A stretch of DNA of 45,366 nucleotides, taken from NCBI GenBank assembly GCA_903875445.1, contig CAIQWD010000017.1:1-45366 (forward strand), read 5' to 3'. The notes below the pieces were generated by a model, which did no database searches, was not told the DNA's origin, and saw only the letters and a program-made list of their open reading frames with translations. The DNA is from an uncultured delta proteobacterium (GTDB lineage: Bacteria > Desulfobacterota > Desulfobulbia > Desulfobulbales > Desulfocapsaceae). Below are positions 14,581 through 44,369 of this stretch, piece after piece. Each line of letters starts with the position of its first letter. Position 1 is the stretch's first letter. The position numbers and the translations under genes are program-made.

Positions 14581-15606
14581 ATGCAAGCAATCGATCTGCG
14601 CAGCGATACCGTCACCAAACCCTCCGAAGCCATGCGTAAGGTTATGGCCGGCGCCGAAGTCGGCGACGATGTCTACCGCGACGACCCGACAGTCAACCGG
14701 CTGGAGGCTTTTGCCGCCGAACTCCTCGGCTTCGAGGCGACGATTTTTACCACCAGCGGCACCCAGGCGAACCTCATCGGCATCCTGTCGCACTGCGGCC
14801 GGGGTGACGAGTATATCGTCGGCCAAGGGGCGCACACTTACCGCTATGAAGGCGGCGGTGCGGCGGTGTTGGGCAGCGTCCAGCCGCAGCCCATCGAATT
14901 CGAGGCGGATTCCACCCTGTCTCTTGCCAAGGTGGAAGAAAAGATCAAACCGGACGACATCCATTTCGCCAGAACCCGCCTCCTCTGCCTGGAAAACACC
15001 CAGAACGGCAAGGCTCTGCCGCTGCCTTACCTGGCCGAGGCCGCAGCCTTCGCCAAGGGCAAAAACCTGAGCTTGCACCTCGACGGGGCAAGGCTGATGA
15101 ATGCGGTTGTCAAGCAGGGGGTTGGGGTCCGCGAAATCACCCGCCATTTCGACTCGGTTTCACTCTGTCTCTCCAAGGGACTGGGAGCGCCGGTCGGCTC
15201 ACTCTTGGCGGGGAACCGGGCGTTTATCGAGGAAGCCAGGAAGTGGCGGAAGATGACTGGTGGCGGCATGCGCCAGGCGGGGCTTCTTGCCGCTGCCGGA
15301 TTGTACGCCCTGGAAAACAACATCGACCGGCTGGCCCAGGACCACCGGCATGCCGAGAGCCTCACCGAGGGCTTGGCGCAGTTTGCGGCCTTGACGGTTG
15401 ATAAAAATCCCGCCCAGACCAATATGGTGTTCTTTACCGCCGATGCAGCAACCACCAGGGATCTCGCCGACTTTCTCGGCCGGCGGCAGATCCTTATCAG
15501 CCCCGGTAAAACCACCCGGCTGGTCACCCACCTGGATATCAATGACGAAGATGTAACTGCCATTCTTCTGGCCTTTGCCGAGTTTTTCAGCGGGCGGCGG
15601 AGCTGA
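14581..15606 (+). CDS. ltaE: Low-specificity L-threonine aldolase
   Basis: The product has 341 residues and splits L-threonine or allo-threonine to glycine and acetaldehyde using PLP. It starts IDLRSDTVTKPS, the typical family N-terminus, has TTSGTQANLIGI for cofactor binding, LHLDGARLMNA, and the PLP lysine in SLCLSKGLGAPVGS. Length and pattern are normal. The ATG at 14581 follows a GGAGGA Shine-Dalgarno. Its 3' end overlaps the convergent kinase gene by 20 bp. Confidence 0.95.
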   Translation: MQAIDLRSDTVTKPSEAMRKVMAGAEVGDDVYRDDPTVNRLEAFAAELLGFEATIFTTSGTQANLIGILSHCGRGDEYIVGQGAHTYRYEGGGAAVLGSVQPQPIEFEADSTLSLAKVEEKIKPDDIHFARTRLLCLENTQNGKALPLPYLAEAAAFAKGKNLSLHLDGARLMNAVVKQGVGVREITRHFDSVSLCLSKGLGAPVGSLLAGNRAFIEEARKWRKMTGGGMRQAGLLAAAGLYALENNIDRLAQDHRHAESLTEGLAQFAALTVDKNPAQTNMVFFTADAATTRDLADFLGRRQILISPGKTTRLVTHLDINDEDVTAILLAFAEFFSGRRS

Positions 15607-16921
15607 CGGCACAGACCGAGGCGAGGCCGTCCTTGTCGAGGCGCTCGAAAAAACTCTCCACCACGTCAACCGTCCAGGCCTGTTTTTTGGTGCATGTGTC
15701 GCAGGTCCATAGCCAGTGGACGGTGCTGTCAAAAAGCGGCCAGGCGGAACAGGCCACCCCGTGCAACGGCGGCTTGAGGACGCTGCAGGCCTCGTCTACG
15801 GTCGGCAGCCGCCAGTTGTCCCGCCCCTGCCAACAAGTGGTGTTGAGATGGGCGACATATTCGCCGGCCTGCTGCCAGTCGAGGGTAAACCCGGAGCCGT
15901 AGCGCTGCCAAGAGAGACGGCTGTTACGTTCGAAGGCCACGAGCGGCCCGGCGACGGCAAAATCCTGGGAGGCATAGACGAGGGGCCGGAACAATTCATC
16001 AAGCCCCAAAGTGGCGCGGATGTCCTTGAACAAAACCCACTCCGCTTGACTGCGGAGCACCGGTCTGTTTCTTTCCGGCTTTTTCTCCCGAATACCAGCA
16101 ACCCGCTGTTCGCCAAGCGGCAGGGCCTGCAGGGCAAGGCGCATCTCCTGGGCGGTCTGGAACCTGTCCTCCGGCCGCCTGGCGATACTCCGCCTGAGCC
16201 ACCCGTCCCACAACGGCCCCACTTCGGGATTGACGGCACTGGCCAGGGCCTCGCCCTGGCGGGCATCGAAGAGGCGACCGGTCAGCATGCGCAGCCCCAT
16301 GACGCCGAGGCTGAAGAGATCGGCCCGGCCATCCGCCCCCTGCGGGTCCCTTTCCTGTTCGGGTGCGGCATAAAAGGGAGAACCGACCTGCATCCCCGGT
16401 ACCGCAGTTTTTTCCTCACCCCGCACCCGCGACAGGCCGAAGTCGATGATCTTCACCCGGTCGTCACTTGTCAACATGAGGTTGTAGGGTTTGATGTCGC
16501 GGTGGATGATGCCGGCAAAATGCAACCTCTCCAAGCCTTTCAGGGCCTGGATCAGATAGGTCCGGGTCTTGGCGACGGAGATGATCCGCGACGGGGCTTC
16601 CACCCGGTACGATTCGCCGATAAAAGTGCCGAGGGAATGGGCGAAATATTCGAGGACGATGAACGGCTGCCCCTCGTGCTCGTCACAGTCGAGCACCTTG
16701 GCCACATGATCGTGGGACAGGGCGCCCATGGTTTTTGCCTCGGCGACGAAAAGTTCTTTCAGCCGCTCCTCGCCTACCAGTTCGGCAAAGAGCGGGTTGC
16801 GCGGCTGGAGGAGCTTCAGGGCCACCAAACGGCCGGTGACCGGCGCCCGGGCCTTATACACCGTGCTCATCCCGCCGCGCCCGAGGCGGCCGACCACCTC
16901 ATATCTACCGATTGTTTTCAT
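15587..16921 (-). CDS. Ser/Thr protein kinase with C-terminal DUF1566 (Lcl) domain
   Basis: The protein has 444 residues. The Hanks-type kinase domain fills residues about 7-270: glycine loop GRGGMSTVYKA, the VALK lysine, catalytic loop IIHRDIKPYNLML, and IIDFGLS for the DFG. After a linker, residues about 330-440 resemble the DUF1566/Lcl module (RLSWQRYGSGFTLDWQQAGEY, DNWRLPTVDEA), often found on surface or sensor proteins. I see no membrane segment between them, so the second domain would also be cytoplasmic. The ATG at 16921 overlaps the phosphoesterase stop by 17 nt. It is the last gene of the uup operon. Confidence 0.88.
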   Translation of the reverse strand: MKTIGRYEVVGRLGRGGMSTVYKARAPVTGRLVALKLLQPRNPLFAELVGEERLKELFVAEAKTMGALSHDHVAKVLDCDEHEGQPFIVLEYFAHSLGTFIGESYRVEAPSRIISVAKTRTYLIQALKGLERLHFAGIIHRDIKPYNLMLTSDDRVKIIDFGLSRVRGEEKTAVPGMQVGSPFYAAPEQERDPQGADGRADLFSLGVMGLRMLTGRLFDARQGEALASAVNPEVGPLWDGWLRRSIARRPEDRFQTAQEMRLALQALPLGEQRVAGIREKKPERNRPVLRSQAEWVLFKDIRATLGLDELFRPLVYASQDFAVAGPLVAFERNSRLSWQRYGSGFTLDWQQAGEYVAHLNTTCWQGRDNWRLPTVDEACSVLKPPLHGVACSAWPLFDSTVHWLWTCDTCTKKQAWTVDVVESFFERLDKDGLASVCAVSSAAR

Positions 16922-17654
16922 AATACCCTGCACCAAGACGTACGGCGTAGGCCTCGGGAAAACCCCTTTCCCCGATTTTCTTCATGGTAATCCGGTAATC
17001 ATAGGCGACAAACACTACCTCAAGGCTTGCCGTGGCACTGTCCCAGAGAAGGTATTTGGCACGATGGTCGCCATCCCGCGGCTGCCCGACGCTGCCGGCA
17101 TTGATGATATATTTTTGCTCCGGGTGCAGCTCCAGGCACTCCTCGCCCAAGGGCCTGCGGACAATCGCCCCCTGCTCCTGCCGGACCAGCTGCAGTTGAT
17201 GGGTATGGCCAAGAAACAAAAGAGAATAGGAGGCGGTGGCCAGCAGTGCCGCCAAGCCGGCATCGGATTGCCGATCGAGATAGCGAAAGACCGAAGATGG
17301 GGGGAACCCATGGACGAAGTAGGCCTGGTCGAAGGCAAGAAATCTCGGCAGGTTGCAGCAGTAGTTACGGCTTTCGGCGGACAGCAAGGCAGCTGTGGCG
17401 ATATTGTTGTCCGCCGCCTGGAAATTCATCCATCTCCTGGCGGCAAGATCGTCGAGGGCGAGTTCGTGATTGCCGAGAATTGACGTGCAGCCAAGATCTT
17501 GCACCCGCCGCACCACCTTCTCCGGGTCCGGCCCGTAGCCGATACTATCGCCCAGGCAGATCACCCGCTCCGCTCCCCGCTGCTGCAGATCGGCACTCAC
17601 CGCCAGAAGGGCTTCAAGGTTGCCGTGAATATCCGCAAGAACAGCGACCTTCAT
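16905..17654 (-). CDS. Calcineurin-like metallophosphoesterase (YfcE-type)
   Basis: The protein has 249 residues, with the family signature in order: VAVLADIHGNLEALL, ICLGDSIGYGPDP, SILGNHELAL, FVHGFPP, FLGHTHQL and IINAGSVGQPRDGD. These supply the Asp, His and Asn ligands of the two metals. Relatives are phosphodiesterases. The substrate is unknown. The start chosen is the ATG at 17654, preceded by GGGAG and 5 nt after the uup stop. A GTG at 17663 is possible. It is encoded between uup and the Ser/Thr kinase, so it could oppose a signal in that operon. Confidence 0.88.
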   Translation of the reverse strand: MKVAVLADIHGNLEALLAVSADLQQRGAERVICLGDSIGYGPDPEKVVRRVQDLGCTSILGNHELALDDLAARRWMNFQAADNNIATAALLSAESRNYCCNLPRFLAFDQAYFVHGFPPSSVFRYLDRQSDAGLAALLATASYSLLFLGHTHQLQLVRQEQGAIVRRPLGEECLELHPEQKYIINAGSVGQPRDGDHRAKYLLWDSATASLEVVFVAYDYRITMKKIGERGFPEAYAVRLGAGYYENNR

Positions 17655-36831: not shown

Positions 36832-38115
36832 CTATGCCAGCAGGGCATCACATGCCGCCGGGTCGCGAAGGTTCAAGTCGACAACTGCAAACGAATCTAA
36901 GCCTAACTTACGGCGTATCAACGCCGCAATGACATAACCTGCGCCGACACAGCCGACGAATGGTGCGCCGACCGAGCGCGTAGCTAGAGTAGTTACTCCG
37001 CACGGGTCTGCACCAGAGGCCAGGAGTGCCTTGTATGCAGGCGCCTTCACGATGTCCGGCGCATCCACGTTGGCAGCCCACAGGTCGGCCGCACGCGACG
37101 GGCCAGGGAAGGTGCGGATGCGGATCGCTTTAAAATCTCTATACCCCGACCCAAGACCGGCGTCGATAATATGAGAAAAACCCGCGCCCTCAAAGACTCG
37201 ACGCGCTGCTGGGTTGTCAACACCGAAGAGTGCAACTCGGGGCTCTGTGGCACCTATCCGTTGAAACTGATCAAACTGACGTTCAACCAGCGCCGTCTTA
37301 TATCCGCGAGCTTCTAGCCATGCTGCGACAATCCGTGTTTTACGATGTTGAATGAGGTTTGAAGTAGAGAGGACTGACGTCGATGGCGTCGAAGATGTTA
37401 TGTCATCTACGTCCTGCAAGAAAAGAGTAGCATCATGTGTGGGGCTCATAAAGCCAATTGTCCAGGCGTAGGCCTGACCAAGGTGCCCGAGACCAATAAG
37501 CCATATCGAAGGCACTTCAGAATCGACTACCGGCCCAACTTCAGCAGTCCTGCCGACTTTACGGGGATCCCAGAGAGACAGCATTAGCGCCCGACGTCCG
37601 GCATAGGGGTTATCGCGGCGCAATATCGAAAACGCCTCGCTTACAGCTAGACCACCGGCTGCAACGCATGCAGGAGGGAACAGAGCACCTTGCACTTTAG
37701 TTTGCCCATTAATGCCAAAAATCCAGCCATCCGCCCACGGATGGATTGCTTCTCCGATCAGAGGACTGCTTAAAGCGCCAATTTCAATGACCGGCCACTG
37801 GTGCGCCTGCTCATCGAGTTTTGGATTCACACCTACCCACCCAGAAAAATCGCTCAGGCTGCTACCGGCAAATCCTGGGGCTGTCAGCACGGTATCACAT
37901 GAGGTCTCGATTTTCACGTTGCCCATGAAGCTGCGTGATGCACAGTTGATGACCGTCAGCGCGATGATCTGTGCAGCAACGTCCCCTTCAAACGACGGGT
38001 TCAACAGGATGCGTACCCCATAGCTTGAGAGCGTTGCCTGCGCATCCTCAATGGTTTCTGCTTCACCGCTATCCGCAAGCACCTTGGCGAGCCGGTGGAA
38101 TGAATCAGCGTTCAT
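36832..38115 (-). CDS. bilD: E1-like ubiquitin-activating enzyme (BilD-type)
   Basis: The protein has 427 residues. The C-terminal half is a ThiF/E1 Rossmann domain: IWLIGLGHLGQ (residues about 204-213), an acidic turn FLQDVDDI, NLIQHRKTRIVAA, and VALFGVDNPAARR. The conjugating cysteine is probably near residue 372 in ADPCGVTTLATR, with SVGAPFVGC after it. The N-terminal 200 residues are an extension I cannot assign. It should adenylate the ubiquitin-like protein and pass it to the E2. The ATG at 38115 follows AGAGAGGT. It is last in the order Ubl, E2, JAB, E1. Confidence 0.85.
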   Translation of the reverse strand: MNADSFHRLAKVLADSGEAETIEDAQATLSSYGVRILLNPSFEGDVAAQIIALTVINCASRSFMGNVKIETSCDTVLTAPGFAGSSLSDFSGWVGVNPKLDEQAHQWPVIEIGALSSPLIGEAIHPWADGWIFGINGQTKVQGALFPPACVAAGGLAVSEAFSILRRDNPYAGRRALMLSLWDPRKVGRTAEVGPVVDSEVPSIWLIGLGHLGQAYAWTIGFMSPTHDATLFLQDVDDITSSTPSTSVLSTSNLIQHRKTRIVAAWLEARGYKTALVERQFDQFQRIGATEPRVALFGVDNPAARRVFEGAGFSHIIDAGLGSGYRDFKAIRIRTFPGPSRAADLWAANVDAPDIVKAPAYKALLASGADPCGVTTLATRSVGAPFVGCVGAGYVIAALIRRKLGLDSFAVVDLNLRDPAACDALLA

Positions 38116-38127
38116 GTCTAACCTCTC

Positions 38128-38595
38128 TTATCGCAATCTGATGAGTGAAGCGGCGTCGTCTTGAAAGTATGAAACCCAGTTTCCTCCACCCAGATAAACG
38201 TTGAAGCTCACGTCCTTTGGCCTCACATTACCGCGTGCGAATTGAGGTACGATGAGCGCGATGTGACCTGCCAGGGAAATCATTGGGTTAGCGCGATCTG
38301 AACGGCTTTGGCGTGGCCCCAGAGGGTGAGTGTGCACATCAGCAACGACCTCGAGCTTTCGTTCAGCACAGATATCCCACAACCGTGAGAACGAACTCGA
38401 CTCAAGCCGAACATAATTGTATTTAAGCGACTTTGGGTCGAGCTCGTCATATGGGAGCCATCCTTGGACCATCCGTGCGGCTTCCGTCATTTTCCGCAAC
38501 AAAAATGCTCCGGATTCACGCCGCCCGCCCCCTCTTCTATAAAGATCGGCCATCAGAGCAGACCAGCTGCCAGGTGCGAATTCAAGAGGCTTCAT
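38128..38595 (-). CDS. bilC: JAB/JAMM deubiquitinase-like protease (BilC-type)
   Basis: The protein has 155 residues from the ATG at 38595, inside the last 14 nt of the E2 gene. The longer frame to 38934 only shadows the E2. The JAMM zinc site is complete: Glu27 in RRESGAFLL, His88 and His90 in DVHTHP, Ser97 and Asp100 in QSRSDRANP. The spacer after HxH looks one residue shorter than in AMSH-type enzymes. It should cleave the ubiquitin-like protein from its targets or process it. Confidence 0.85.
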   Translation of the reverse strand: MKPLEFAPGSWSALMADLYRRGGGRRESGAFLLRKMTEAARMVQGWLPYDELDPKSLKYNYVRLESSSFSRLWDICAERKLEVVADVHTHPLGPRQSRSDRANPMISLAGHIALIVPQFARGNVRPKDVSFNVYLGGGNWVSYFQDDAASLIRLR

Positions 38596-39034
38596 GCACA
38601 AGCTCCTTACTTTGCAATATCTCGCATACCGCTTCAATGTATTGAAGCAGGCCACGCGAGGGGGTCCAAATGAGCCAAGAGTGTTCAGATAGCCAATTTG
38701 GATGCCCCTCGAAACTCTCACGGTCGCAGGGTATGTAGAGCGCCGTGCCACCTTTCCAGTTTGGGTTGAACACATTTGAGACTCGCCCGCCTCGCGGCCA
38801 CAGAGCTGCGGACAATTGCAGCCCGGACGTGAGGTCCCACAGTGTTGCGGTTGGTGCAACGTCAGGGTAACCAGTGCATTCGAAGCGTAACGTGAAGTTC
38901 CGTCCATCGCATACCCCAACCTCAACGAAAGCAAGAGGCCATTTTAGTTCAATTAATCGCCACCGCCCCTTAGCAGCTCCGGCCAGAAACCTGCCGGAGC
39001 TCAGGTGAACTTCTAGTTCTTCCTTGCCGCGCAT
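38582..39034 (-). CDS. bilB: E2-like ubiquitin-conjugating protein (BilB-type)
   Basis: The protein has 150 residues from the ATG at 39034, which has GAGGAG at ideal spacing. An ATG at 39052 would overlap the Ubl stop and add six residues. The pattern fits a divergent UBC fold: beta strands with FTLRFECTGYPDVAPTATLWD, then WKGGTALYIPCDRES, where the Cys of YIPC is the likely conjugating residue, then NWLSEHSWLIWTP and a closing helix LLQYIEAVCEIL. Similarity to eukaryotic E2 is low and the call leans on the neighbours. Confidence 0.75.
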   Translation of the reverse strand: MRGKEELEVHLSSGRFLAGAAKGRWRLIELKWPLAFVEVGVCDGRNFTLRFECTGYPDVAPTATLWDLTSGLQLSAALWPRGGRVSNVFNPNWKGGTALYIPCDRESFEGHPNWLSEHSWLIWTPSRGLLQYIEAVCEILQSKELVHEAS

Positions 39035-39044
39035 TTGATTCTCC

Positions 39045-39527
39045 TCACCCATTCACCCGCGGAGATGGAACGAGGTCGAACTCGAGCTTATGCTCAGGCG
39101 CCTTTACGAGAGTACCGATGTGGATGTCGGCATCAGGCCGGTTATCTGTGCCTCTAATCTGCAACATCAGTTCAGCAGCATCCGAGGGAGCAACCCCTAG
39201 TTCGTGTGTTGCCCACTTCTTCACACGTCCCACAGTTGTGCTCGGGCGAAACGAGCGAAGAACATCTTTGCCGGCGTAGCGGACGATGACATCAATGCTC
39301 TTCAGACGGTGAAGTTGGACGCGTATGCCCTCGTTAACTTGGCTGAGCTTCTCCAGCGCGTGCTCGTCGTCATCATCTTCAATGAAGATGAAGAACTTTT
39401 CGTTGGGTTGCAAATTGACTTTTGCAAGGCAAGCAGCTCGGAGCATGGAATGCCCCCCATCAGAATCAACCTCGACGACCTCAATGTCACTCAGCAGCTC
39501 GGATTGCAGAAAAACTTTGACCTTCAT
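39045..39527 (-). CDS. bilA: Tandem ubiquitin-like protein (BilA-type)
   Basis: The protein has 160 residues and appears to contain two beta-grasp domains (about 1-75 and 76-155), like ISG15. The second is clearer (IDVIVRYAGKDVLRSFRPST, then a helix VGRVKKWATHELG, and the last strand KLEFDLVP). The C-terminus ends in Asn-Gly, so a terminal glycine is free for adenylation without trimming. The ATG at 39527 has AGAGGT upstream. A 29-bp element shared with the sigma-like gene lies 50 bp upstream. It is first in the four-gene conjugation operon. Confidence 0.78.
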   Translation of the reverse strand: MKVKVFLQSELLSDIEVVEVDSDGGHSMLRAACLAKVNLQPNEKFFIFIEDDDDEHALEKLSQVNEGIRVQLHRLKSIDVIVRYAGKDVLRSFRPSTTVGRVKKWATHELGVAPSDAAELMLQIRGTDNRPDADIHIGTLVKAPEHKLEFDLVPSPRVNG

Positions 39528-39577: not shown

Positions 39578-39606
39578 AAACCGAGATGAGGTGGCAAAAA
39601 GGAAAA
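39578..39606 (-). promoter_or_regulatory. Shared box A, upstream of the Bil operon
   Basis: Plus-strand reading: AAACCGAGATGA (39578-39589), 7 bp, then AAAAGGAAAA (39597-39606). It is identical in both blocks and spacing to box B at 44341-44369. On the transcribed strand this is TTTTCC, 15 bp, CTCGGTTT, the spacing expected of ECF-type -35 and -10 elements. It ends 50 bp before the Ubl start codon. It may be a promoter for the sigma-like protein or an operator. Confidence 0.75.
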
Positions 39607-39628
39607 CGATGGTGAGAAAAAAGAAGGT

Positions 39629-42600
39629 TTAACGCGGAATAGTCGGACAAAAAGTTGAGTAAGCACACCAGTTGCAATGCCTGCCGGTGACAGGTTTGCG
39701 GTCGCCATTACGGAACTTCTGAATAGCGATGTATGCGTTGGTTTTCGAGATTCTATAACTCGGTTTGAACTTTTTGTATTGGCAGGCCATCAAGGAATGC
39801 ATCGTCAGCTCATCGGCATGATTGGGCTTTAGACCATTGAGCATAGGGCGCCATAGTCTGGATGGGACTTCAAGATCCCCGGAGAAACGGAGGAACTCAA
39901 TTGCAAGATTATGCCCCGACTTGTCGAGCAACAGCCATGGTAAACGTATCTCAAAACCATCAACCTGCGAGATAGGTTCAGCGTATGATCCTTGAGACTC
40001 TTCAATCACCTTGGCGCCAACTGCGAAGACATCCATTGCGTGCGTCCAAAGCTGGGCGTCTGTGGTCTTAACAGGAAGTTTGTTCTCCTGCCATGCCGCT
40101 TCAAAGGCATCGTCCTTTTCCTGACCAGGATCGGAGGCAAAGTGCTTGAGTCCATCCATAATGGCACGGCGCGCGCGAATCGCAATGTCCTTCTGCTGTT
40201 CGCCAGGCAGGTCTAAGCTATAACGATACCAGTGTTGGAGTGGGCATCGTGCGTAAGTCTCGAACTCATAAAAAGACATCGAGCGTTGCGCGTGGCCAGC
40301 GGTAGGTGGCGGGAGGATTTCGTTTGCCATCGATCTGTTGAAGTCGACCGTCTTGTATGGCGCTGGAGGTTGCACAAGTTGAGGCGCACGTTTTTTTTGC
40401 TCTTCGCCGTTTTCGTACATCAGCAGGTGGCGACGAGCACGGGAGACAGCGACGTAGAGAAGGTTGTTCCGCTCGACGGCTGCCTCGAAATCCCAATTCT
40501 CGCGATTACTTCGAAGTGCCTCGGGCGGTACTAGCGTGAGGATTGGCGGTTCACCGCGCCATTTGGCAGCATCCTCTCCGTAGTCGTCGATGTTCACGTT
40601 GGCTACGTGAACCGCCTCGAACTCCAAACCTTTGCTGCCGTGAACCGTCAGCATGTGTACTGCCTCAAGGCCAGCCGCCTCTGGAGGAAGCTCACGATCG
40701 GCATAGGTTTCGCCGATGCGCTGCCGAAGTTGCTGACGCAGAAGGAAGCGCGATAAGGTCGGGATCTTCCGGCCACCGTCTCCCGCTCGTGTCGCGTAGG
40801 CAAACTGCCAAAGCGCTATTCGAGTTGCATGGGCGTCAATCGACTGATCGGAGATGTCTGAATAGCCAAAGCGACGCTCCAGCAGCAGATCGCAGACAAA
40901 ACTCCAAGGGTTTGTTCTTCGTTGTTGACCCTGTAACAGGCCACGAATTTTCACCAGCGCCGCATTTGACTTTTTAGAAAGAAGTTCTGGCCATTTATCA
41001 CGCCACCCACCCCGCTGCAACAGCGGATCACTGGCGCACACATCCAAAAGAATGCGCAGGTCTTCCAATTCCACTTTTAGCCCCATCTCGCCCATTAATC
41101 CTACAAGGGCCCGCGGTAGCCGCTCGACGAGCAACTGCATCAGGCAAAGCAGGTTCTTAACTTCCCTTCGCTGAGCCAGTTCGCCGATGTAGAGCATAGG
41201 AATGCTCTTTTCGCGCAAGCGTGCGGCGATCTGTTGGACCTCGTGATTTCCGCGACTCAGGACTGCCTGATTGCAGTAGGAAATGCCGCTGTTGTGAATT
41301 TCCTTAACCCCCTCGACCACTGCTTCGGCCATTGCCTCCCCAGGGTAACACCGTACAAGGCTGGGCATGTGCCCCACCTTCCCAGCGGTGGCCGTTGTAT
41401 TTGCGAGTTTCAGAGGAGTGTTCTCTAGGACGTGTCGGCGGCCGACTTGTTGCACAACCTCGAGAATCTCGGAGGAGCTCCTTCTATTGAATCCCAACGA
41501 GTAGGAACGGAGACTAACGTTGCTGCCCTTTGATTTGAAGGTTTGGTCAAAACGAATCAAGCTGTGCACTGATGCTCCACGCCAGTGATGGATTGCCTGA
41601 CGTACGTCACCGACTACCCATAGAGACTTGGCGTTCTTGGCGAGCTGACGGATCAGCTCAACCATGACGAAGGTCACATCTTGGTATTCATCCACCAGCA
41701 CGTACTGGAACTTGTCCGCAATTTCTCCGTATTGTGGTCGATCTTCTTTCAAAGCTTGCGCAGGCTTTGATACAAGATCGACAAAATCCACCATCTTCTT
41801 GCCCTTCAAGATGCGCTCATGACATTCATACAGCGTGGCCACGTCCTCGCGCTGAAGCCCTATAGCCTCGGAGGTTGTAGGCAGCAAAGGCAAGGAGTTT
41901 CGGTAGACTTCGGGCGTGACCATCTCTTCTTTCAAGCGTTTTATGCCGGCAACCAAAGCAGGCAGCCATTCATATGGGTCCTGAACTCGTTTGTAATACT
42001 TAAGCTCCAGCGTTGGAAGCTCTCCATTCAGCAGGGTCACCGAATTGAGCATATCTGCTACGACTATGTCGCTTTCTAAACCGAAGCATTGGTGGTATTT
42101 GCGAAGAAATTCCAGTCCAAAAGCATGAAATGTTCCAGCCCAGACGTCCGTGGCCCGGACTATGCCTGCGTCTCGCAATCGCTCTATCAGTTCGAAGGCC
42201 GCCTTATTCGTGAACGTTAGAACAAGGATGTGACTTGGGTCGACGCGTTGTTCTTCAATGAGGTATCGTACCCGATGCACGAGCGTCGTTGTTTTTCCTG
42301 ATCCTGGACCGGCCACTACATTTACAAAACGCTCAGCAGCCCTGATTGCCGCAAGTTGGTCAAGACTCGGAGGTGGTGACGTTTTCGCTTCGGTCGAAGC
42401 GGTTGTCAGGGGAAGCATCACGGCATCTAACATCTGTTGTCGCACCACTTCAAGGTGAATACCGTAGTCGGTTGCTACCTTCCTTGGTCCAATGCCAGCC
42501 TTATAAAGCATGCGGGCGACGGAACGGGGCAGCAGCAGCTCACGGGCGAAAACGTTGGCACGAAGCTCTAAACGTTCCCGTGCCCCGTATGCCTCGACTC

Positions 42601-42958
42601 TGATGACCGCGGGTGAGCCTTCCACTGCTGCCAACGACTTTAATGTCGCGATCGTGGTTTCTTCTTGACCCTCGTCTAAAACGTAGTGACCCAGTTCATG
42701 AGCGATTAGGTAAGCCTTTTCGGAGCCACTCACGTCGTCGCGGACGTAGATGTAGTTCTCGGAGCGCCGCAAGATCGCATCGGCACCGCCTAGCTCCGTC
42801 GAGTCCTTGGGAACATACGCTATACCCAAATCGAGCTTTTGCTCAACTATGTCCGGAGAGAGCAATTCCCTAATGTGAACGACTTCACAAGAACGTTCGA
42901 AAAGCAATTTTTTTCTAAGTCCTGCGGCTTCTTCGCGGACACGATAGAAAGGGTTCAC
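39629..42958 (-). CDS. ImmA/IrrE peptidase–UvrD helicase–PD-(D/E)XK-like fusion
   Basis: The protein has 1109 residues from a GTG at 42958 right after the previous stop. A TTG at 42976 is possible. Residues about 80-200 form an ImmA/IrrE zinc peptidase (AYLIAHELGHYVL, then RANVFARELLLP). A UvrD/Rep helicase follows: VVAGPGSGKTTTLVHR, YVLVDEYQDV, GDVRQAIHHWRGA, LTVHGSKGLEFEAVH, LLYVAVSRARRH. The last 200 residues resemble an AddB-type nuclease domain with cysteines YARCP and CNWCAYSTFC for an Fe-S cluster. The nuclease acidic/Lys triad is unclear, so it may be degenerate. ImmA-type enzymes cleave repressors on DNA stress. The helicase could sense that DNA. Confidence 0.85.
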   Translation of the reverse strand: MNPFYRVREEAAGLRKKLLFERSCEVVHIRELLSPDIVEQKLDLGIAYVPKDSTELGGADAILRRSENYIYVRDDVSGSEKAYLIAHELGHYVLDEGQEETTIATLKSLAAVEGSPAVIRVEAYGARERLELRANVFARELLLPRSVARMLYKAGIGPRKVATDYGIHLEVVRQQMLDAVMLPLTTASTEAKTSPPPSLDQLAAIRAAERFVNVVAGPGSGKTTTLVHRVRYLIEEQRVDPSHILVLTFTNKAAFELIERLRDAGIVRATDVWAGTFHAFGLEFLRKYHQCFGLESDIVVADMLNSVTLLNGELPTLELKYYKRVQDPYEWLPALVAGIKRLKEEMVTPEVYRNSLPLLPTTSEAIGLQREDVATLYECHERILKGKKMVDFVDLVSKPAQALKEDRPQYGEIADKFQYVLVDEYQDVTFVMVELIRQLAKNAKSLWVVGDVRQAIHHWRGASVHSLIRFDQTFKSKGSNVSLRSYSLGFNRRSSSEILEVVQQVGRRHVLENTPLKLANTTATAGKVGHMPSLVRCYPGEAMAEAVVEGVKEIHNSGISYCNQAVLSRGNHEVQQIAARLREKSIPMLYIGELAQRREVKNLLCLMQLLVERLPRALVGLMGEMGLKVELEDLRILLDVCASDPLLQRGGWRDKWPELLSKKSNAALVKIRGLLQGQQRRTNPWSFVCDLLLERRFGYSDISDQSIDAHATRIALWQFAYATRAGDGGRKIPTLSRFLLRQQLRQRIGETYADRELPPEAAGLEAVHMLTVHGSKGLEFEAVHVANVNIDDYGEDAAKWRGEPPILTLVPPEALRSNRENWDFEAAVERNNLLYVAVSRARRHLLMYENGEEQKKRAPQLVQPPAPYKTVDFNRSMANEILPPPTAGHAQRSMSFYEFETYARCPLQHWYRYSLDLPGEQQKDIAIRARRAIMDGLKHFASDPGQEKDDAFEAAWQENKLPVKTTDAQLWTHAMDVFAVGAKVIEESQGSYAEPISQVDGFEIRLPWLLLDKSGHNLAIEFLRFSGDLEVPSRLWRPMLNGLKPNHADELTMHSLMACQYKKFKPSYRISKTNAYIAIQKFRNGDRKPVTGRHCNWCAYSTFCPTIPR

Positions 42959-42959
42959 C

Positions 42960-43577
42960 TTAGTCTTCTCTTCCAAGTTTAAGTAGTCGTTCCGTCTCTT
43001 TTTCTGGGAGCTTTAGCCCACTAACGGCCTCTTCCCAAGATACCGGTTCAACAGGAAGCCTCGGCTTGCTACCTCCACCTTTGAATGCGGGGACGGCACT
43101 CTCCTCAAATTGTCGTCGGAACAACTCTACCAAAGCAAGCCTGGGCACATCAAACAGGGCAGTAAGTGCGTCTAGTACTTTCGATGGAGCCTTTGTTCGT
43201 CCCGACAGAACTCCGTTGAGAAGCGTCGGATAAGAACCTATACCTACTGCAATAGCGACTTGCTTACGTTCAGACGGCTTTTGGATAGATTCGACTTTTT
43301 TCTTAGCCTTAGCCAAATTTAAGCTGGTCGTCTGATGAATCTTGCTTAGTGCCTTGCTAACAGTACGGTTCGCCAGTTCCTCGTCCAATTCGTACGGCTT
43401 TGCGACCGCATCGGCCGCATCACCTGCTGCGCGAACCATTGCGGCGTCTGCAATCGCGCTGGCATACTGAGGGAATCGCTCAATGAATTGTTTCCAGTCT
43501 TGGTTCGTCGGCCTGGGGTGTTGGTTCAGAAAATCGACGATTAGTTTTTCAGATTCTGGCACGTTTTTGTTGATCAT
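42960..43577 (-). CDS. HTH-like putative regulator
   Basis: The protein has 205 residues. I do not recognise the family. Residues about 105-145 look XRE-like (KQVAIAVGIGSYPTLLNGVL, SGRTKAPSKVLDALTALFDVP), and the C-terminal part is charged with a proline-rich linker. The ATG at 43577 overlaps the sigma-like stop (ATGA), with GGGGGTG upstream. A small HTH protein beside an ImmA peptidase is the usual ImmR/ImmA or DdrO/IrrE pairing, so it may be a repressor or anti-sigma cleaved by the next gene's product. That is inference. Confidence 0.6.
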   Translation of the reverse strand: MINKNVPESEKLIVDFLNQHPRPTNQDWKQFIERFPQYASAIADAAMVRAAGDAADAVAKPYELDEELANRTVSKALSKIHQTTSLNLAKAKKKVESIQKPSERKQVAIAVGIGSYPTLLNGVLSGRTKAPSKVLDALTALFDVPRLALVELFRRQFEESAVPAFKGGGSKPRLPVEPVSWEEAVSGLKLPEKETERLLKLGRED

Positions 43578-44284
43578 TCCATCACCCCCTGGAGTTTTTC
43601 CAAGCTTCGCTTAAGGTGTAGTCTGGCTGTAGGAATTGAACAGCCTATAAACTCAGCGACTTTTCCCCAATCATATCGGCACATGATGCGGAAATAAAAT
43701 ACATTCCTCTCGACTTGAGGCAGCGAAATCAGCATGCTACGCACAGCCAGGGTTTGCTGGGTCCGCATAAAGGCCTCTTCGGGCGTCTCGGCATTATTGT
43801 CCTTAACCATGTCAATGAAAGGAGTCTTATTGCCGTCCTTGTCATCCATTGTCATCTTATCGATTGACTCCATGCTGTTCTTCTGCGCGAGCAGATGGCG
43901 CATGTAATCATCAACACGGTTGCGTACAAAAACCGCAAAATAAATTTCGCAGTTTGACAAACCCTCCTCTGTGAGGAGCGCGTCCCACACGTAGTCGATG
44001 GTATCTGCGGCAATCGTGTTACTTCGACTCGTCAATCCGTACCATTCTAAACGAAGGCGCTTGCCAACTAGAATTTGAATTCTTTTGTTCAGCACAATTG
44101 TCGCCTCAGTGGTGACACCGGCTGATTCATACATCCGGTTTCTAATAAGTGAAGCGAGTACTTCCGAGTCAAGGAAATCATCATCTTTGTAATCAATGAT
44201 TCCTATTCTTTTAAGTACATCAGCAGGCTTCCAAGTCTCTAAAGACTTCAGCTGACTCTCGTGCTTCGGTTGGCGTTTGCGCAT
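43574..44284 (-). CDS. ECF-type sigma factor-like protein
   Basis: The protein has 236 residues. Residues about 70-135 resemble sigma region 2 (ILVGKRLRLEWYGLTS ... YFAVFVRNRVDDYMRHLL). Residues about 190-232 resemble region 4: LPQVERNVFYFRIM, then YDWGKVAEFIGCS, and TARLHLKRSLEKL, a helix-turn-helix that would contact the -35. The stretch between them is longer than in many ECF factors. The ATG at 44284 has AAGGG upstream. Box B lies 56 bp before it, and the same box precedes the Bil operon, which suggests autoregulation. Confidence 0.7.
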   Translation of the reverse strand: MRKRQPKHESQLKSLETWKPADVLKRIGIIDYKDDDFLDSEVLASLIRNRMYESAGVTTEATIVLNKRIQILVGKRLRLEWYGLTSRSNTIAADTIDYVWDALLTEEGLSNCEIYFAVFVRNRVDDYMRHLLAQKNSMESIDKMTMDDKDGNKTPFIDMVKDNNAETPEEAFMRTQQTLAVRSMLISLPQVERNVFYFRIMCRYDWGKVAEFIGCSIPTARLHLKRSLEKLQGVME

Positions 44285-44340
44285 ACGACCCTTATTTCGA
44301 TTTTTAAGGAGTTTGATTCATTGCAGTGGCCTCAGTATAT

Positions 44341-44369
44341 AAACCGAGATGAACTGCTCAAAAGGAAAA
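44341..44369 (-). promoter_or_regulatory. Shared box B, upstream of the sigma-like gene
   Basis: Plus-strand reading: AAACCGAGATGA (44341-44352), 7 bp, then AAAAGGAAAA (44360-44369). The two blocks match box A exactly over 22 of 29 positions with an equal spacer, whereas the spacers differ. It ends 56 bp before the sigma-like ATG. Flanks on the downstream side are AT-rich in both copies. Confidence 0.75.

Follow-up and report, generated by a model that had tools for sequence, protein, structure and literature searches.

Several bacterial defence operons lie directly behind regulators that respond to DNA damage. As passages of PMC13373217 describe them, CapH+CapP, CapW and CapK+CapS are regulators of this kind, placed directly upstream of defence operons that include ubiquitin-like (Bub) and Bil operons: five Bil operons accompany CapK+CapS, CapW or CapH+CapP stands beside 219 of 544 Bub operons, and CapP is a protease that is activated by single-stranded DNA (ssDNA) and cuts CapH. 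An IrrE-type peptidase directly activated by ssDNA is also found in PprI(IrrE)-DdrO, while the Csx29-Csx30-CASP-sigma system of type III-E CRISPR combines a defence-linked protease, a sigma inhibitor and an extracytoplasmic function (ECF) sigma factor with motifs in its own promoters (passages of PMC10904395 and PMC10028731, respectively). Here we analyse a 45,366-nucleotide contig (CAIQWD010000017.1, the whole of which we call the window) from an uncultured delta proteobacterium of the Desulfocapsaceae, in which one copy of a promoter-like box precedes a sigma-like gene and a second copy precedes a bilABCD operon. We argue that the two boxes are a promoter pair linked to the sigma-like gene, a reading that is supported by comparison of loci and not by experiment.

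Like the Cap regulators, the module in the window stands directly upstream of a defence operon. Those regulators act via DNA-binding repressors, and PprI(IrrE)-DdrO, as the cited passages present it, cuts a repressor and has neither sigma factor nor helicase fusion, whereas here the box resembles a sigma-type promoter pair, the regulator is sigma-like and the protease is fused to a UvrD helicase. The difference from Csx29-Csx30-CASP-sigma lies in the CHAT protease of that system, which is triggered by target RNA, in Csx30, which is a larger and different protein, and in the output (passages of PMC10028731). Pfam found no CHAT domain here, M78-UvrD being present instead, and Csx30 was not searched for, so the locus is not assigned to that system. 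The four Bil genes are the same as those of BilABCD, while the three-gene sigma module and box upstream of them have no description in the literature passages that we examined. Our open-literature search returned no description of the module beside Bil, which does not establish its absence from print; the main text of PMC1779556 has no mention of sigma, UvrD or helicase, and PMC11354881 has none of sigma or helicase. The module is a sigma-based variant on known defence controllers. Its genes and sites, with positions in the window, are as follows.

44341..44369, minus strand: box 1, predicted ECF-like promoter of the sigma operon, TTTTCCTTTT-N7-TCATCTCGGTTT, 56 bp 5' of the sigma-like ATG (44284).
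44334..44361, minus strand: sigma70-like promoter match TTGAGC-16-TATACT (9 of 12 letters), overlapping box 1.
43574..44284, minus strand: sigma-like protein of 236 amino acids, with N-terminal helices, an apparently divergent sigma2 domain and a sigma4 domain.
42960..43577, minus strand: gene 2, 205 amino acids, proposed anti-sigma-like partner, with a helical N-terminus, a weakly XRE-like middle and a conserved C-terminal motif (alignments and AlphaFold (AF2) model).
39629..42976, minus strand: M78 (IrrE-like) metallopeptidase-UvrD helicase fusion of 1115 residues, with a C-terminal PD-(D/E)XK-like region (Pfam).
39578..39606, minus strand: box 2, the same predicted promoter, in the helicase-bilA gap, 50 bp 5' of the bilA ATG (39527).
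39045..39527, minus strand: bilA, tandem ubiquitin-like protein, Gly-terminated (PADLOC BilA 4e-49; C-terminal Gly in the alignment).
38582..39052, minus strand: bilB, E2-like (PADLOC BilB 1e-53; Pfam DUF7665).
38128..38595, minus strand: bilC, JAB deconjugase-like (PADLOC BilC 2e-59; Prok-JAB 3e-5, slightly under its cut-off).
36832..38115, minus strand: bilD, E1-like (PADLOC BilD 1e-142).

Thus the order on the minus strand is sigma-like gene, gene 2, M78(IrrE)-UvrD helicase, a gap, then bilA, bilB, bilC and bilD, and the PADLOC matches to all four consecutive genes identify the operon as BilABCD. The peptidase motif HExGH of the M78 domain (H93 E94 G96 H97) is unchanged across 13 aligned sequences including that of the window, as are Cys 911, 1101, 1104 and 1110 of the fusion; the locus thereby has an M78 peptidase with an intact HExxH, as a CapH+CapP-type system would.

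In plus-strand letters the box is AAACCGAGATGA-N7-AAAAGGAAAA, which on the coding/transcribed (minus) strand becomes TTTTCCTTTT-N7-TCATCTCGGTTT. The first-pass annotation of this DNA had placed two copies at 39578-39606 and 44341-44369, in the same orientation, with differing 7-bp spacers and 50-56 bp before minus-strand start codons, and had judged a chance origin very unlikely. All of this was borne out. Exact matching recovers the two copies, with 22 fixed letters and unequal spacers, and their measured distances are 50 bp (bilA) and 56 bp (sigma-like gene). There is no third copy with up to three mismatches in the window, 100 dinucleotide shuffles of the window give 0 matches, and the whole genome (G000; 4,894,380 bases) holds one extra site, with three mismatches, and no other exact copy.

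For comparison we assembled 97 loci: 15 plasmid regions (14 of 26 BilA-matching records, most of the 12 omitted resembling near-duplicates, plus one helicase match), the best 80 of 193 BilD-profile relatives in a genome collection, one viral contig and the window. Record titles of the BilD relatives include Proteobacteria, Chloroflexi, Acidobacteria, planctomycete genera, a Geobacter metagenome-assembled genome and a Candidatus Manganitrophus genome. Homologues were retrieved successfully with BilA, helicase and BilD queries instead of the sigma-like protein, which has no homologues among the plasmids or viral contigs searched, no E. coli DNA match, and weak matches in 17 of the other 394 genomes of its phylum (best E 1.7e-9). 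The sole strong gene-2 match among 395 genomes of that phylum is the window's own. The sigma-like gene, gene 2 and bilA occur together in 80 of the 97 Bil loci, and in 77 of these 80 the order is complete, gene 2 being separated from bilA by the M78-helicase; L028, L107 and L117 are without it. We considered a standalone M78 gene in those three loci and rejected it, since the M78 profile found no M78 protein there. Parts are incomplete in two of the 80, L030 having a short sigma match and L037 (Aquincola) a short bilA match; given the latter, we also rejected the idea that the L037 module drives a non-Bil operon. Outside the 80 are five loci with ample flank and no module (L033, L035, L090, L116, L118), seven partial or truncated loci with bilA (L054, L071, L074, L076, L083, L088, L104) and five with no bilA match (L038, L050, L052, L062, L095). 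Three of the sigma-less Bil loci have other regulatory genes beside bilA: an annotated helix-turn-helix (HTH) regulator and ImmA/IrrE peptidase in L035 (5705-6596), an annotated XRE regulator in L033 (5510-6766), and an M78 match in L116 (7549-8268). Dereplication at 80% sigma identity left 62 loci (L115 repeats L029; L047 and L048 are near twins).

The DNA upstream of the sigma-like gene and that upstream of bilA were compared in each locus without a preset motif, using a two-block (bipartite) score with a maximum of 18 and a pass at 16 or above. The pass was reached by 63 of the 80 loci and the maximum by 20; the corresponding numbers are 40 and 0 among 960 same-locus controls, and 118 and 24 among 951 mispairings. 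An excess among mispaired loci is expected, because relatives have boxes in common. In the dereplicated set, 47 of 62 loci pass (105 of 2480 same-locus controls), 35 of the 62 lying above all of their 40 controls and 12 tying with them. The best 30-mer match averages 21.0 of 30 positions when both sequences come from one locus; mispairing the loci lowers this to 18.5, and random stretches taken from within a locus give 18.35. The three loci lacking the M78-helicase (L028, L107, L117) still show a box-like pair, with scores of 16, 15 and 18, and have kept both gene 2 and the sigma-like gene. The scan of related islands that the first-pass annotation had proposed as a check thus shows the box to be present in most of them.

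The element common to these sites is TTTCCGRTT followed by CGA or CGG, most often 22 bp from TTCC. This distance is seen at 48 of 94 sites, the pattern being missing at 20, and the TTCC-to-CGR spacing is identical in 30 of 36 measurable pairs. TTTCCG or TTCCGR stands before the sigma gene in 71 of the 80 loci and before bilA in 69, as against 400 of 1623 random same-locus stretches. The second, -10-like half differs by clade: it is CGATTA, TGCGACTTA, CCGGTTGA or CGGAATTA, with CTCGGTTTA in the window and in its closer relatives, and homologous boxes often end CGACTTA or CGATTA. For the 49 of 62 loci with a TTCCG anchor on both sides, the two -10 9-mers of one locus agree on average at 7.82 of 9 positions (n=49), while agreement between loci is 5.08 of 9 where sigma identity is below 35% (n=2222) and 7.08 of 9 where it is at least 35% (n=326). 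On this comparison the box changes together with the sigma protein. It is important to note that the sigma gene and gene 2 are inherited together, and co-variation alone therefore cannot tell which of the two proteins reads the box.

With 70 sites as training data, we built a motif model and used it to score the 12 bilA-bearing Bil loci outside the 80. It found no box in the five module-less loci L033, L035, L090, L116 and L118 (shuffle p 0.10 to 0.46). Among the partial or truncated loci, boxes were strong in L054, L071, L074 and L088, good in L076 (p 0.007) and borderline in L083 and L104 (p 0.04 and 0.05); L074 is not a clean case, having 2.5 kb of upstream DNA and no helicase match. When 11 whole genomes were searched with a version of the box from beta-proteobacteria, allowing up to two mismatches, 28 sites matched, as against one for a reversed-pattern control. 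Of the 28, 27 are clustered on one contig of their genome, in a stretch of about 6.3 kb and at spacings that fit the Bil locus; the other lies elsewhere (G396:C32). A pattern drawn from the form in the window and its relatives matched in three of nine genomes, with two sites in the L040 genome and a single one in each of the L039 and L041 genomes. Five loci also have a third box-like match, with one or two mismatches (L079:9944, L084:9944, L085:9944, L087:9944 and L094:9944), at the 3' end of bilC and some tens of bases 5' of bilD. We do not claim it as a promoter, as it lies within the bilC coding sequence; the likeness may be coincidental, arising from conservation of the protein, or it may mark an internal promoter. 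Elsewhere in the window, positions 15587-16936 encode a protein kinase domain together with an Lcl_C domain.

We read the sigma-like protein, from profiles and a structural model, as a divergent two-domain (sigma2 and sigma4) sigma factor. Region 4 alone is found by Pfam in the protein of the window (Sigma70_r4_2 2e-5, slightly under the cut-off), and NCBIfam ECF models match it below their cut-offs; 47 of 63 sigma-like homologues match Sigma70_r4_2, which places a sigma4 domain in the family. When the family profile is compared with solved ECF factors, the alignment spans both domains (for example, residues 13-185 of 6in7). The AF2 model (predicted local distance difference test, pLDDT, 91.7; predicted template modelling score, pTM, 0.67) gave Foldseek matches that are mostly sigma chains, including E. 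coli sigmaE, SigH and AlgU, seven of them with E ≤ 0.001, at low TM-scores of about 0.2 to 0.4 and with large root-mean-square deviations. The HTH also matches GerE, of the LuxR family, in 13 of the 63 members. As expected of an ECF factor, comparison places a bipartite promoter before both its own gene and its target genes.

Gene 2 we infer to be an anti-sigma-like partner. ECF factors are controlled by, among others, soluble anti-sigma factors and Ser/Thr kinases (passages of PMC8103513), and relatives of gene 2 have sigma genes for neighbours. The gene-2 profile matches in 31 of 201 Chloroflexota genomes, that of L044 included, some with two or three matches, and in 18 of 18 Chloroflexota regions fetched a sigma-like open reading frame (ORF) adjoins the gene-2 ORF with a gap of at most 77 bp. 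None of the 18 Chloroflexota regions examined (among L135-L154 and L170-L187) has a Bil match. The first ~60 residues of the profile also match, weakly (E near 1e-5 to 1e-3), the N-termini of long planctomycete proteins, and a sigma-type ORF adjoins in seven of ten planctomycete neighbourhoods (by profile in L189, L190, L193, L194 and L195; by Pfam in L188 and L196), four of the ten having been chosen for a first Pfam scan for their adjoining sigma-sized ORF and the rest counted later. In L190 that ORF is on the opposite strand, and in L193 it lies 3' rather than 5'. Six of the long proteins were scanned in their correct frame, and every one is a kinase of the Ser/Thr type (L188, L189, L190, L191, L194, L196). 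Because its N-terminal region is shared with kinases near sigma genes, the comparison suggests a sigma-docking function for the N-terminus of gene 2, which does not prove inhibition. The XRE matches of gene 2 are very weak, with HTH_31 in two and HTH_3 in one of 63 members at E ≤ 0.01.

The module is also found at other operons. The gene-2 profile was run on 398 genomes from the phylum to which L085 belongs; apart from the genome of L085 itself, it matches strongly in five and weakly in two. In all five strong genomes (L128-L132) the sigma gene, gene 2 and the M78-helicase are followed by a multiubiquitin operon instead of Bil, with Multi_ubiq in 5 of 5 and Prok-E2_E, ThiF/JAB, DUF6527 or DUF6791 in some. 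In L128, L129 and L130 the motif model accepts a box behind the helicase, while L131 and L132 have a variant only; ahead of the sigma gene it accepts one in L129 only. This post-helicase site is shown only by the motif model and by a box pattern written after viewing the sequences, and the unbiased pair score in multiubiquitin loci is not above controls.

There are several possible explanations for the paired box. Taken as a whole, the best is that a single dedicated sigma factor of the group-4/ECF-like kind uses both boxes as its promoters, with a switch made of gene 2 and the M78 peptidase; we give this a probability of about 0.84. The closest competitor, which we nonetheless consider unlikely, is that the box is an operator bound by gene 2 as a repressor of XRE-like type, in the style of CapH/ImmR, which the M78 peptidase inactivates, with the sigma-like protein as an accessory. 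Gene 2 does have a weak XRE resemblance and stands beside an M78 peptidase, as CapH does beside CapP, the co-variation would fit it equally because it is inherited with the sigma gene, and some sigma-less Bil loci (L035, L116) do have an M78 protein nearby. However, the box lacks the symmetry of a palindrome and has two parts, like -35 and -10 elements, whose spacing is fairly constant, the XRE resemblance is very weak, and the sigma-less Bil loci have no box, including L033 and L035 with their annotated XRE/HTH regulators.

Less probable still is a reading in which no dedicated sigma factor is needed and the boxes are normal sigma70 promoters or the site of an activator. The 9/12 sigma70-like match over box 1 and the GerE matches of the sigma-like HTH speak for this, but box 2 has no sigma70-like match, sites of such quality are rarer than expected in the region (three observed, 5.9 expected), the homologous boxes commonly end CGACTTA or CGATTA, and the sigma-like protein has a sigma2-like domain in its model and profile besides sigma4. 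The match over box 1 is possibly a basal promoter or a product of chance. That the pair is a non-functional duplicated repeat or a chance similarity, kept without selection, we find scarcely credible: the window does hold just two exact copies, yet the pair recurs with different sequence in several phyla, and its spacers vary while its halves stay matched.

Several observations weigh against the dedicated sigma factor and its switch. The support for them comes from comparing sequences. About a quarter of the dereplicated loci (15 of 62) score below 16 and show no clear pair, and a leave-one-out motif tops all 60 shuffles in just 42 regions on the sigma side and 43 on the bilA side, of 62 each. 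None of the 63 sigma-like proteins matches Pfam Sigma70_r2, so that sigma2 must be divergent; no known anti-sigma fold is seen for gene 2, its matches to solved structures being insignificant. L028, L107 and L117 have the sigma gene, gene 2 and Bil with no M78 protein detected in the locus, and the protease step is thus not universal. Likewise, a helicase match is absent from 13 of the 18 Chloroflexota sigma-gene 2 regions and present in five, which, given the adjacency in all 18, makes the sigma gene and gene 2 a stable pair that exists without the helicase. Four Chloroflexota modules with the helicase and without Bil score 14-15, a value that controls reach at other loci, from which the comparison is taken. 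Together with the control-level scores at the multiubiquitin loci, this makes the paired autoregulatory box apparently a feature specific to the Bil version.

Against these points stand the recurrence of the pair, the co-variation of the -10 half, the boxless module-less loci and the two-domain sigma model, all of which favour the earlier suggestion that the sigma-like protein drives itself. That it also drives "the conjugation system" is likewise supported, a phrase that has to mean ubiquitin-like conjugation by Bil and not DNA transfer. On the reading with a dedicated sigma factor, the sigma holoenzyme would read box 1, giving positive feedback on the sigma-gene 2-M78/UvrD operon, and box 2, turning on the bilABCD ubiquitin-like anti-phage operon. 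Gene 2 would keep the sigma factor inactive until the M78 peptidase, activated by DNA that its own helicase handles during phage replication or damage, cut gene 2 and so freed the sigma factor; CapP, PprI and Csx29 act on their own substrates in a comparable way. It is from this analogy that we infer the M78-helicase to be a DNA-sensing protease acting on gene 2.

We further suggest, tentatively and at slightly less than even odds, that these loci represent a fourth, sigma-based class of immune controller. In it, an M78-UvrD helicase-nuclease would sense unwound phage DNA and cut gene 2, and the freed sigma factor would amplify itself and start ubiquitin-like conjugation, the cassette having been adopted by Bil and multiubiquitin operons in several phyla.

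If the dedicated sigma factor is real, the presence of the M78-helicase, gene 2 and the sigma gene beside most of the Bil operons examined would be explained, and the box promoters could be read, mutated and used as reporters. There would also be a direct way to test for phage sensing ahead of BilA conjugation, and bilABCD cloned without the module could miss its native control. Bacterial ubiquitin-like defence would then be not simply always on, but under the control of its own sigma factor.

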